From Lautropia sp. SCN 69-89 (lineage in GTDB: Bacteria; Pseudomonadota; Gammaproteobacteria; Burkholderiales; Burkholderiaceae_E): a stretch of DNA of 38,274 nucleotides. The stretch spans positions 1 through 38,274 of the forward strand of contig MEED01000031.1 in the NCBI GenBank assembly GCA_001724855.1, given 5' to 3'. Below are positions 24,217-28,014 of this stretch, piece by piece (within the stretch, counting starts at the first letter, position 1; every line of letters begins with the position of its first letter). Below the pieces are notes generated by a model. That model did no database searches. It saw only the letters and a program-made list of their open reading frames with translations, and was not told the origin of the DNA. The position numbers were made by a program, and so were the translations under genes.

Positions 24217-26319
24217 TCAGCGGCGCGCGGCGCGCCGGCGCAGGGCCTCGCGCACCGTGTCGGCAACGTTCTCGGCGGTGAATCCGAACAGGCGCGCGAG
24301 CACGGCGGCCGGCGCGGATTCGCCGAAGGTGTCCAGCCCCACGACCGCGTCGCAACCGTACTTCCACCATCCGTCGGTGACCCCGGCTTCGACCGCGATG
24401 CGCGGCAGGTGGTCGGGCAGCACGTAACTGCGGTACGAGGGTTCCTGGCGGTCGAACACGGTCGTCGAGGGCATCGAGACGATGCGCACCGCAATGCCGT
24501 CGGCCGCGAGCAGTTCGCGCGCGGCAAGCGCGAGCGAGACCTCGGAACCGGTGGCGATGATCACCGCGTGCGCTTCCTCGGCGTCGCGCAGCACGTACGC
24601 GCCACGGTCGATCGCGTCGACCTGGCGCGCCGAGCGCGTGACGAACGGCACGGCCTGGCGAGAGAACAGCAGCGCGCTCGGCCCGTCGCGACGCGCGATC
24701 GCGGCACCCCAGGCTACTGCCGACTCGACCGGGTCGCAGGGACGCCAGACGTCGAGCCGCGGAATCAGCCGCAGCGACGCGGCATGCTCCACCGGCTGGT
24801 GCGTCGGGCCGTCTTCGCCCAGACCGATCGAGTCGTGCGTGAAGACGAAGATCACGCGCTGCTTCATCAGTGCCGACATGCGCACCGCGTTGCGCGCGTA
24901 GTCGGAGAAGGTGAGGAAGGTGCCGCCATACGGCACGAAGCCGCCGTGCAGCGCCAGCCCGTTGAGGATCGCGCTCATGCCGAACTCGCGCACGCCGAAA
25001 TTGACGTGGCGACCCGGCACGAACGAATCGTCGACGCGCAGCGCACCGGCGCCCTTGAAGTCGGTGAGGTTGCTGCCGGTCAGGTCGGCCGAGCCGCCAA
25101 TGAGTTCCGGCAGCGTCGGGCCGAAGTGGTTCAGCGCGTTCTGCGAAGCCTTGCGCGTGGCGATCGTCTCGGCGCGCGCCGTGGCTTCCGCGATCGCAGC
25201 GTCGAGCGCTTCGTCATAGGCACCGGGGAGGTCGCCGCGCATTCGGCGTTCGAACTCCTGCGCATCGGAGGGGTGGCGCTCGCTGTAGCGCTCGAACATC
25301 GCGCGCCAGTCGGACTCCGAGCGCGCGCCGCGCTCGCGCGCGTCCCAGGCCGCGCGCACCTCGGGCGGGATCTCGAACGGCGGATACGGCCAGTCGATCG
25401 CCGCGCGGGTGGCGGCGATTTCGTCCTTGCCGAGTGGCTCGCCGTGCGCCTTCGCGGTATTGACGCGGCCGGGCGACCCCTTTCCGATCATCGTGCGGCA
25501 CTGGATCAGCGTGGGCGCGAACGTGCCGTCGCGGCCGCGCGCGCCCCATTCGCGCGCCAGCGCGATCGCACGGTCGAGCGCTGCCACGTCGTGCCCGTCG
25601 ATGTCGGGGATCACGTGCCAGCCATAGGCCTCGAAGCGGCGCACGGTGTCGTCGCGGAACCAGTGCTCGACCTGGCCGTCGATCGAGATGCCATTGTCGT
25701 CGTAGAAGACCACCAGCTTCGACAGCTTCAGCGTCCCGGCCAGCGAGCAGGCCTCGTGCGAGACGCCCTCCATCATGCAGCCGTCGCCGGCGAACACCCA
25801 GGTGAAGTGATCGACCACCGGGAATCCGTCGCGGTTGAAGCGCGCGGCCAGCAGCCGCTCGGCCAGCGCCATGCCCACCGCGTTGGCCAGCCCCTGCCCG
25901 AGCGGGCCGGTGGTCGTCTCGACGCCCGGCGTGACGCCGACCTCTGGGTGCCCCGGAGTCATCGAGTGCAGCTGGCGGAACTTGCGCAGCTCTTCGATCG
26001 GCAGCGCGTAGCCGGTGAGGTGCAGCACCGAGTACAGCAGCATCGAGCCATGACCGTTGGACAGCACGAAGCGGTCGCGGTCGGCCCAGTGCGGGTCGGC
26101 GGGGTTGTGCTTCAGGTGCCGGGACCACAACGCGACCGCGATCTCGGCCATGCCCATCGGCATTCCGGGATGCCCGGAGTTGGCCTGCTGCACGGCATCC
26201 ATCGACAGCGCGCGAATCGCGTCGGCCATCTTCTTCAGGGTGGCCGGCGGCGGCAACGGCGCCCCGGAATGGCCGCCGCTCACGGCGGGTTGCGCGCTAT
26301 GTTCCAGGAGAGCCTCCAT
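24217..26319 (-). CDS. tkt: Transketolase
   Basis: A 700-residue thiamine-diphosphate enzyme moving two-carbon units between sugar phosphates in the pentose phosphate and Calvin pathways. Motifs: [50 protein letters not shown], the TPP/Mg segment [18 protein letters not shown] with DDNGISIDG, the pyrimidine domain [13 protein letters not shown] and [18 protein letters not shown], and the C-terminal FDRQEPSY. The extra 28 N-terminal residues ([17 protein letters not shown]) precede the usual start. ATG 26319 follows GAGGA by 5 bases. It heads the tkt-gap-orf106-pgk operon, from an extended -10 promoter and a leader of about 77 bases that begins with a strong hairpin. Confidence 0.96.
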
Positions 26320-26377
26320 CGCGGTCCTCGCAGCTCGGGTGCAGGTCGGCGCTCCGCCTTCGGCACGCCCGACACCG

Positions 26378-26398
26378 CTGCCCGGCTACGCCGGGCAG
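26378..26398 (-). promoter_or_regulatory. Perfect 9-bp hairpin at the 5' end of the tkt mRNA
   Basis: CTGCCCGGC and GCCGGGCAG pair perfectly around a three-base loop. If transcription starts about seven bases after the -10 at 26408-26403, this stem sits at the extreme 5' end of the tkt transcript. Such 5' stems can protect mRNA from decay; early-transcript pausing or attenuation is an alternative. No T-run follows. Confidence 0.45.
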
Positions 26399-26402
26399 GC
26401 CC

Positions 26403-26411
26403 ATTCTAGCA
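26403..26411 (-). promoter_or_regulatory. tkt operon promoter, extended -10
   Basis: On the minus strand the sequence TGCTAGAAT contains TAGAAT (26408-26403) preceded by TGC, an extended -10 element. No good -35 is found 16-18 bases upstream, which is tolerable for an extended -10. The predicted start is near 26396. Confidence 0.5.
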
Positions 26412-26427
26412 AACCGGCGCAATCCGG

Positions 26428-26458
26428 CTGGCGCGAAAACCTGTGGATCCGCTATAAT
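26428..26458 (+). promoter_or_regulatory. Promoter of the spermidine fusion gene, consensus -10
   Basis: TATAAT (26453-26458) is a perfect sigma-70 -10, the best in the window. The nearest -35-like hexamer is CTGGCG (26428-26433) at 19 bp, a poor match, so an activator or the AT-rich upstream context may matter. It is back to back with the tkt promoter: the two -10 elements are about 45 bp apart, so the upstream elements overlap. Transcription should start near 26465, leaving about 257 nt before the ATG. Confidence 0.55.
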
Positions 26459-26515
26459 GGCGGGCTCTCTTCGCGAGGCTGCGTACATCACCGCCCCGCG
26501 GCTTTCCACTGATCT

Positions 26516-26669
26516 GGATCCCCCCGAATCAAGACCAAGGGGATGCTCAGGAACTGGTTGAACAGGCCGGCGCAAGCCGGCCTGAACCGATCGGGCCCGC
26601 AGGTTGCGCCGCAAGGCAACTCCGGGCACTTGGGGTCTTCAATCCAGGATCCGCACCTGCCAGGGTGCG
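26516..26669 (+). promoter_or_regulatory. Candidate structured RNA leader upstream of the spermidine synthesis gene
   Basis: Reading by eye, the leader folds into a branched structure. The closing helix pairs GGATCC (26516-26521) with GGATCC (26647-26652), then across an internal loop AAGAC (26531-26535) with GTCTT (26635-26639) and CAAG (26536-26539) with CTTG (26629-26632). Inside are hairpin A, a 9-bp stem 26563-26571/26576-26584 capped by GCAA with GGTT/AACC below it, and hairpin B, GCCCG/CGGGC (26595-26599/26623-26627), GTTG/CAAC and CC/GG, also capped by GCAA. A third stem CGCACC/GGTGCG (26652-26669) follows and competes for one base with the closing helix. I do not recognise a known riboswitch. 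It precedes an enzyme that uses S-adenosylmethionine and makes spermidine, so sensing of one of these is a fair hypothesis. Confidence 0.5.
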
Positions 26670-26721
26670 AATCCGCAGAATGGTCCACGCCGGCGACGGG
26701 AAGGGACTGGGTTGGAACGGA

Positions 26722-28014
26722 ATGCAGGGACTGCACCTCACCGCTGATCTGTACGGCTGCCAGTGCGACGGCGCACTGCTCACCGACGCCACGGAACTCG
26801 AACGGCTGTGCCGTGCCGCGGTCGACGCCGCGGGTCTCACCGTGGTCGACGAGAAGTTCTTCACCTTCCCCGACTACCAGGGCGAGCCGGGCGGCGTCAC
26901 CGGTGCCGTGCTGCTCGCAGAATCGCACCTGGCGATCCACACCTGGCCCGAGCGCTCCGGCGTGACGCTCGACGTCTACGTCTGCAACTTCTCCACCGAC
27001 AACTCGTCGAAGGCCGAAAAGGTTCTCGACGACCTCATCGTCGCATTCGCGCCGCGCCAGCAGGGCACCAACCGCATCCTGCGCGGATCGGAAGACCCGG
27101 TCTCGCAGTCGGGCGAGCTGCTGCTCGAATGGCTCAACGACGACAGCGCGTTCGGTTTTCGCGCCGCGCGCCGCATCGAGACGGTGCGCACTCCCTACCA
27201 GACGCTCGAGGTGTTCGAGACGCCGCAGTGGGGCCGCCTGTTCCGCCTCGACGGCTGCTACATGACCTCCGAGCGCGACGAGTTCTTCTACCACGAGGCG
27301 ATCACGCATCCGGCAGCCATCGCGCATCCGCGCCCGGTCTCCGCGCTGGTGATCGGCGGCGGCGACGGAGGCTCGACCGAAGAGCTGCTCAAGCACCCGA
27401 CGATCGAGCGGGTGGTGATGGCCGAGCTCGACGCCGAAGTGGTGCGCGTCGCACGCGAGCACCTGGGCACGGTGCACCGCGGCGCATTCGACGACCCGCG
27501 GCTCGAACTGCGGATCGGCGACGGCTGGGCGCTGGTCGAGAAGATGGCCGCTACCGGCGAGCGCTTCGATCTCGTCGTGCTCGACCTCACCGACCCCGAT
27601 ACGCCCGCACACCGCTTGTACACGCCCGACTTCTTCCGGATGCTCGAGCGGGTGATGAACCCGGGGGCGGCGGTCACGCTGCACATCGGTTCGCCGGTGT
27701 TCCGCCCCGACCTGGTCCGCAAGCTGCTCGCCGCGCTGTCGTCGGTCTTCGCGATCGTGCGCCCGCTAGGCCTGTACGTGCCGCTCTACGGCGCCTACTG
27801 GGGCATGTGCTGCGCATCGCAGACGCTCGATCCGCTGGCGATCGACGCGCACGCGGCGCAGCAGCGCATCGACGAGCGCGGCATCTCCGACCTGCGCTAC
27901 TACAACGGCGACATCCACCGGGCGCTGTTCGCGTTGCCCAACTTCTATCGCGAGCTCGTGCCCGGTGCCGCCCGCGCGAGCGCGCCGCAGGCGCTGGCGC
28001 ACGCGGCGCGCTGA
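26722..28014 (+). CDS. Fused S-adenosylmethionine decarboxylase-spermidine synthase
   Basis: A 430-residue bifunctional protein. Residues 1-115 are a class 1B AdoMet decarboxylase: ESHLAIHTWPE contains the self-cleaving Ser68 that would become the pyruvoyl cofactor, with His73 and Cys88 spaced as in the Thermotoga enzyme (63/68/83). Residues about 135-420 are an aminopropyltransferase: FRLDGCYMTSERDEFFYHE, the AdoMet-type loop IGGGDGG (211-217), MAELD, and the catalytic VVLDLTDP (Asp288, Asp291) with GAYWGM. Together they would turn AdoMet plus putrescine into spermidine. Self-cleavage at Ser68 would leave the synthase attached to the alpha chain. The ATG at 26722 has only a weak GGA upstream; an open frame begins 19 codons earlier without homology. 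A long structured leader precedes it and rsmE follows after 29 bases. Similar fusions are known in some bacteria. Confidence 0.92.
   Translation: MQGLHLTADLYGCQCDGALLTDATELERLCRAAVDAAGLTVVDEKFFTFPDYQGEPGGVTGAVLLAESHLAIHTWPERSGVTLDVYVCNFSTDNSSKAEKVLDDLIVAFAPRQQGTNRILRGSEDPVSQSGELLLEWLNDDSAFGFRAARRIETVRTPYQTLEVFETPQWGRLFRLDGCYMTSERDEFFYHEAITHPAAIAHPRPVSALVIGGGDGGSTEELLKHPTIERVVMAELDAEVVRVAREHLGTVHRGAFDDPRLELRIGDGWALVEKMAATGERFDLVVLDLTDPDTPAHRLYTPDFFRMLERVMNPGAAVTLHIGSPVFRPDLVRKLLAALSSVFAIVRPLGLYVPLYGAYWGMCCASQTLDPLAIDAHAAQQRIDERGISDLRYYNGDIHRALFALPNFYRELVPGAARASAPQALAHAAR

Follow-up and report, generated by a model that had tools for sequence, protein, structure and literature searches.

The speDE locus and its leader

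The window, the 38,274-nucleotide stretch of Lautropia sp. SCN 69-89 that was analyzed, carries on its plus strand a fused adenosylmethionine decarboxylase/polyamine aminopropyltransferase gene (speDE, SpeD-SpeE). Each half of the product scored over the cut-off of one NCBIfam model (NF002010 and TIGR03330), and the speE model TIGR00417 scored under its own cut-off. The start codon was placed at ATG 26722 and not at GTG 26665, because the relatives have a common start like MQGLHLTADLYG; the ribosome-binding region shows no clear Shine-Dalgarno sequence. Upstream of the speDE leader lies a divergent transketolase gene. All 17 aligned upstream regions carry the string ATTCTAnCAAA (26403-26413) unchanged; read on the minus strand it is TTTGnTAGAAT, which is probably the transketolase gene's -10 region.

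The first-pass annotation had reported a consensus -10 followed by a long gene-free stretch, and had proposed a branched RNA there as a possible new riboswitch. The -10 stood as a TATAAT, which a scripted search recovered upstream of all long leaders (11/11), but not as part of a full sigma-70 promoter: a two-hexamer consensus scan returned no sigma-70-type promoter at the leader and no -35 match. The transcription start near 26465 is therefore inferred. Given this start, the leader runs for ∼257 nt ahead of ATG 26722, and the claim that the 257 nt between TATAAT and ATG hold no conserved gene was confirmed. The features are collected in Table 1.

Table 1. Features of the speDE gene and its leader, in window coordinates
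Feature	Position	Strand	Basis
TATAAT, likely -10 box of the leader	26453..26458	+	Sequence; TATAAT upstream of 11/11 long leaders
P0, 5′ hairpin (26472-26482/26490-26500)	26472..26500	+	RNAalifold; 4 pairs with two-sided changes; 78.8% of cells paired
5′ end element TTTCCACTGATCTGG, 5′ strand of P1 (26504-26507 and 26509-26515)	26503..26517	+	Both end elements in 20/33 family leaders; inner helix 104/105 cells
P2 extension, CUGA 26509-26512/UCAG 26547-26550	26509..26550	+	In minimum-energy fold; 0.5 kcal/mol above free ensemble at 37°C
P2 hairpin, AUCCCC/GGGGAU, loop with AAGACC (26531-26536)	26518..26544	+	RNAalifold; kept in divergent long leaders too
Junction helix, CUCAGG 26546-26551/CUUGGG 26629-26634, around P3 and P4	26546..26634	+	RNAalifold on 8 leaders; 6/6 pairs in 11/11 long leaders
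P3 arm (26554-26560/26588-26594 and 26563-26571/26576-26584), GNRA loop 26572-26575	26554..26594	+	RNAalifold; 1 pair with two-sided change
P4 arm (26595-26599/26623-26627 and 26603-26607/26616-26620)	26595..26627	+	RNAalifold; 3 pairs with two-sided changes
CTTGGGGTCTTC block, supplying the 3′ strand both to the junction helix and to the possible pseudoknot AAGACC 26531-26536/GGUCUU 26634-26639	26629..26640	+	In 11/11 long leaders
P7, UUCAAUCC 26638-26645/GGGUUGGA 26709-26716, around P5 and P6 (26682-26686/26704-26708)	26638..26716	+	RNAalifold on 8 close leaders, invariant there
P5 hairpin (26647-26658/26663-26674), includes the 3′ GGATCC of the earlier annotation	26647..26674	+	5 pairs with two-sided changes
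3′ end element GACTGGGTTGGAACGGA and first base of ATG, 3′ strand of P1 (26709-26715 and 26719-26722)	26705..26722	+	End-element search, energies, RNAalifold, pairing test
speDE, fused adenosylmethionine decarboxylase/polyamine aminopropyltransferase, 430 codons	26722..28014	+	NF002010, TIGR03330

An ATG at 26543 opens a 140-codon frame in the window, and an ATG occupies that site in 9 of the 11 long leaders, as control through a leader peptide encoded by this upstream frame would have it. Seven of the frames run for 67 to 140 codons, but that of L034 ends after 10 codons and that of L037 after 3, and L046 and L047 have ATA. No terminator-like site was found in 26300-26800. The reading frame, broken or absent in these 4 of 11 long leaders, was rejected, and leader-peptide control is hardly credible.

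Conservation and distribution of the leader

Among the 101 genomes searched, 8 in the genus (the window's own included) carry a full-length or nearly full-length copy of the leader. The seven other close leaders are 79.0-93.0% identical to that of the window (gaps counted), and the four-fold sites of speDE in the same relatives are 64.7-88.9% identical; the leader exceeds the four-fold sites in all seven comparisons. A stretch upstream of the promoter was less conserved than the leader in 6 of the 7 relatives; in L032, the closest one, it was slightly above it (94.0 vs. 93.0). Three further long leaders (L038, L046 and L047) have an overall identity of just 40-53%, under that of their own four-fold sites (63.0-71.3%), yet specific blocks are kept exactly. 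The speDE protein match of L046 and L047 (genomes G017 and G010) is interrupted close to residue 280: additional bases separate the pieces while the frame stays open, which amounts to an insertion of some 28 to 35 codons in the SpeE half.

A covariance model of the 5′ core of the leader (R1, 63 positions) gave one match of at least 74.4 bits in each of 11 of the 74 family genomes, every one at a speDE leader, and the next-best match scored 24.2 bits. Among the 399 genomes searched in the order, G000 and G014, both among the 11, were the only ones to stand out, and the rest reached at most 24.5 bits, which was regarded as noise. Stricter filters were applied in both searches, in which only part of the first-pass candidates was scored (13 or 72 per genome), so that weak copies may have escaped. 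Within the genomes searched, the long form of the leader is restricted to part of one genus.

The earlier annotation recognized no SAM, SAH, c-di-GMP, guanidine or speF consensus in the leader. No Rfam 15 family reached its gathering score in the window, known RNA thermometer families included. Up to an E value of 5 there was just one unrelated chance match, on the other strand of the window, and scanning 18 related loci in Rfam gave no match.

A probable start-codon helix

The two ends of the leader are complementary. UUUCCRCUGAUCUGG can pair with GGGUUGG...GRAAUG, which spans the start codon, to form a helix (P1) that had escaped the first-pass annotation; in it CUGAUCU faces GGGUUGG, and UUUC or UUCC faces GAAA or GGAA at the start codon. 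A relative (E 1e-60 or better) is encoded in 43 of the 74 family genomes, and 33 leaders from 32 of these were examined. Both end elements, with at most three and at most two mismatches, occur in 20 of the 33 (0.0 in dinucleotide shuffles), and at these cut-offs one or both are missing from 13. The shorter family leaders keep just the ends, TTTCCRCTGATCTGG and GACTGGGTTGG (16-18 nt before the ATG). The distance between the end elements is 11 nt in L053 and L058, 187 nt in the window and 269 nt in L047, and the leader exemplifies an RNA whose ends are kept while the intervening stretch varies over this range. L052 and L080 (from genome G021 and assembly RBC005, which seem to be one and the same) are two speDE copies in one genome, and each leader has both end elements.

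For a pairing test anchored on GGTTGG, the 19 leaders with recognizable elements were reduced to 15 distinct rows, with L044, L045 and L061 placed by eye. In the inner helix 104 of 105 cells were paired, a count easier to reach than in a mixed helix, because its 3′ strand is mostly G and U and transitions opposite it stay paired; sliding the strands by one base left 60/105 cells paired, and by two bases 17/91 or 21/105. One inner position was seen as U-G, U-A and C-G, and an outer helix of at least four pairs is possible in 14 of the 15 rows. RNAalifold recovered P1 unaided from six leaders, two of them divergent (65/66 cells paired), and single-sequence folds contained it in 3 of 11 (L035, L038 and L039). 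The P1 duplex was more stable than the shuffled mean in 14 of 19 leaders (best single rank 14/500) and weaker in five (L041, L042, L044, L045 and L058). With the 8 close leaders alone, RNAalifold favored over P1 the combination of P7 and pairing between 26501-26511 and codons 2-4; these helices likewise bury the start region, and P7 is a competitor for the ribosome-binding region. From these comparisons we consider a helix P1 across the speDE start codon likely.

The hairpin arms of the long leaders

The fold of the leader is weak evidence when judged by its stability alone, which is not significant (z -1.70; 12 of 200 shuffles were equally or more stable). Unguided RNAalifold on the 8 close leaders produced a branched fold, which counted on alignment A2 of these leaders comprises 87 pairs with 95.4% of cells paired. 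Two-sided (compensatory) changes occurred in 13 pairs, all in P0, P3, P4 and P5 (Table 1), when the shuffled mean was 6.2 and none of 500 shuffles reached 13. The covariation tool cautions that related sequences may exceed shuffles without structure. A control in which the strands were slid by 1 to 3 columns, and which retains this relatedness, was exceeded (2 to 5 compensated pairs vs. 13 in place), yet the structure was derived from the same alignment as the count. P1, P2, the junction helix and P7 are near-invariant in these 8 leaders, so this set neither supports nor opposes them.

The arms partly match what had been drawn from the single sequence. The nine-pair hairpin with a GCAA loop, now the distal part of P3, was borne out: its loop is GNRA throughout the 8 close leaders (GCAA, GCGA or GUGA), and one pair was seen both as G-C and as C-G. 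The second hairpin, also drawn with a GCAA cap, gave way to P4, in which GCAA lies within an 8-nt loop.

The long-range closing helix around both hairpins fared worse, with no compensated pair as drawn. Its GGATCC/GGATCC part showed no two-sided change in the 8 close leaders and had unpaired cells at 2 of 6 positions (3/47 cells); it was rejected in favor of P5, the local hairpin with five compensated pairs in which the 3′ copy (26647-26652) sits. CAAG/CTTG, again with no two-sided change, competes with CUCAGG/CUUGGG, which is paired 6/6 in all 11 long leaders. Only AAGAC/GTCTT survived: the pairing was kept and extended to AAGACC/GGUCUU, no longer as part of a closing helix but as a possible pseudoknot with P2, for which no compensating change was found. 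The proposed one-base overlap between a further stem and the closing helix is real and falls on base 26634.

The conserved core

Beneath the variable arms the 11 long leaders have a common core, namely P2, CUCAGG/CUUGGG and a near-complete AANACC/GGUCUU, and their inner hairpins differ strongly. The two strands of the junction helix lie 75-211 nt apart in these leaders and are still fully paired; the helix shows no covariation because its sequence does not change. AAGACC 26531-26536 and GGUCUU 26634-26639 are fully paired (6/6) in 8 leaders, and the three divergent leaders (L038, L046 and L047) keep 5/6 pairs, with no compensating changes among the long leaders, and this pairing has base 26634 in common with the junction helix. 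Together, P2, the junction helix and AAGACC/GGUCUU would form a pseudoknotted junction core with the predicted order AUCCCC, a loop with AANACC, GGGGAU, CUCAGG, the arms, CUUGG and GGUCUUC.

Such conserved blocks could serve a partner in trans. Were a regulator, possibly SpeDE itself, to bind the core, invariant blocks in and next to helices would be in place for it, and the leader element was found before speDE only. A core piece, GGGGATGCTCAGGAACTGG (26539-26557), also resembles by eye the gene's own start, CGGAATGCAGGGACTGC (26718-26734), and could be a decoy or a protein site; gene-start-like pieces of this kind invite comparison with the autoregulatory leaders of ribosomal-protein operons. 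The candidate protein CsrA, however, was found in none of the 11 genomes with a long leader (83-98% complete; genus range 68-98%), and in 3 of 14 control genomes. We regard protein-dependent control as rather unlikely. A trans-acting small RNA could instead use conserved single-stranded blocks as pairing sites, and invariant blocks such as CTTTCCACTGATCTGGATCCCC are of the kind expected, but the blocks pair inside the leader itself, across the family, which makes a small-RNA target very improbable.

The comparison supports the view that a conserved, branched, switch-like cis-acting RNA outside all Rfam 15 families precedes speDE; this part of the riboswitch proposal held, and the closing helix as drawn mostly did not. 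On comparative grounds, the leader is a real, new and lineage-restricted cis-acting RNA.

Predicted competing folds and a proposed model for translational control

The extension of P2 is incompatible with P1 and with the junction helix; P1 excludes it because 26509-26512 are used by both. In constrained energy calculations the states with P1, P7, extended P2 or the junction helix lay 0.5-3.0 kcal/mol over the free ensemble at 37°C and 0.6-0.8 kcal/mol over it at 25°C, predicted energies whose errors are as large as the differences between states. Because these differences are within the error of the energy model, several competing folds are plausible. In the same model P1 takes a larger share when the temperature falls from 37 to 25°C. 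Of the 14 shorter leaders tested, seven allow a GCGG/CCGC hairpin to take up the 5′ strand of P1 instead, and two of these seven (L056 and L057) have no recognizable 3′ element.

Control of translation initiation is the most likely mode of action, because no terminator-like site, conserved upstream reading frame or CsrA was found. We lean towards reading the leader as a structured cis-acting RNA that would control translation initiation of SpeD-SpeE, of which a metabolite-sensing core is the weaker part. P1, the helix supported by comparison, would cover the ribosome-binding region together with the start codon's first base and would represent the OFF state. It would be prevented when its 5′ strand pairs locally, with the CUGA/UCAG extension of P2 here and with the GCGG/CCGC hairpin in shorter relatives, and P7 would rival it for the same ribosome-binding bases. 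Between the ends lies a conserved core with freely varying hairpin arms. More tentatively, the core might sense one of the pathway's products or intermediates, with spermidine as the first candidate and decarboxylated AdoMet, methylthioadenosine or AdoMet after it, and abundance of this metabolite might favor the OFF fold; it is the identity of the gene alone that points to a pathway metabolite as the signal. In this way the leader may tune spermidine production.

The same near-balance of folds would suit a structured leader with no specific sensor, in which polyamines, magnesium or temperature shift the balance of P1, P7 and extended P2 and translation follows ions or temperature. Several states within 3 kcal/mol at 37°C and within 0.8 kcal/mol at 25°C, the added weight of P1 at 25°C, and short family leaders that retain the end elements and not the long core all fit this alternative, but core blocks kept exactly in 11 long leaders are more than a general ion effect needs, and we consider it unlikely. 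Returning to the sensing core, it is possible, although on balance doubtful, that the leader belongs to a new riboswitch class of Betaproteobacteria, in which the pseudoknotted core would read a metabolite of the spermidine pathway and the start-codon helix would shut SpeD-SpeE translation. The shorter leaders would then be reduced versions with the start-codon helix and an opposing hairpin only.

Other speDE leaders and known systems

A second, unrelated-looking conserved speDE leader of ∼220 nt occurs in other Burkholderiales (L101, L103, L105, L109, L111, L114, L117, L119, L127 and L152). In all ten sequences UCCCCC pairs with GGGGGA directly before the ATG (one U-G), two-sided changes were found in 6 of 47 predicted pairs, and an Rfam scan of L101, L105, L109, L111 and L117 returned no match. 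This type is likewise long and conserved, with its 5′ part paired with the ribosome-binding region, but no sequence in common with the leader of the window was recognized by eye, and the GGGGGA/UCCCCC pairing belongs to the second type. Two more arrangements were noted by eye. Within the last 60 nt of Alcaligenaceae-type leaders (L116, L118, L124, L128, L130 and L154), CCTTGG and CCAAGGAG could pair, hiding a Shine-Dalgarno sequence. In Tepidimonas/Thiobacillus-type leaders (L121, L131, L134, L136, L137, L138, L148 and L150) the last 70 nt show a hairpin around GGTCTGG, and directly before the ATG there is a conserved GATTGGATGGGGG block.

Translational OFF riboswitches are a general kind of RNA that hides the ribosome-binding site. 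The putative switch ahead of speDE resembles them in its conserved core and mutually exclusive helices, one of them over the start region, all as predicted folds; it differs in that P1 would lie over the start codon and over a stretch that has no clear Shine-Dalgarno sequence. In the open-licence literature we found no published work on speDE leader RNA in Burkholderiales.

RNA sensing of polyamines has long been claimed. As described in the article on it, the spermidine riboswitch is a four-stem SAM-I variant with 13 examples in Gram-positive bacteria and acts by transcription termination (Salvail et al. 2023; PMC10853860). The same article judges the earlier evidence for such sensing unconvincing (PMC10853860). 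Compared with the riboswitch as portrayed there, the speDE leader likewise precedes a gene of spermidine synthesis, but it has no SAM-I or other Rfam match and no terminator-like site, and it belongs to Betaproteobacteria. A conserved leader ahead of the gene for the spermidine-committing enzyme, in Gram-negative bacteria, would make RNA sensing of polyamines testable in an unrelated lineage.
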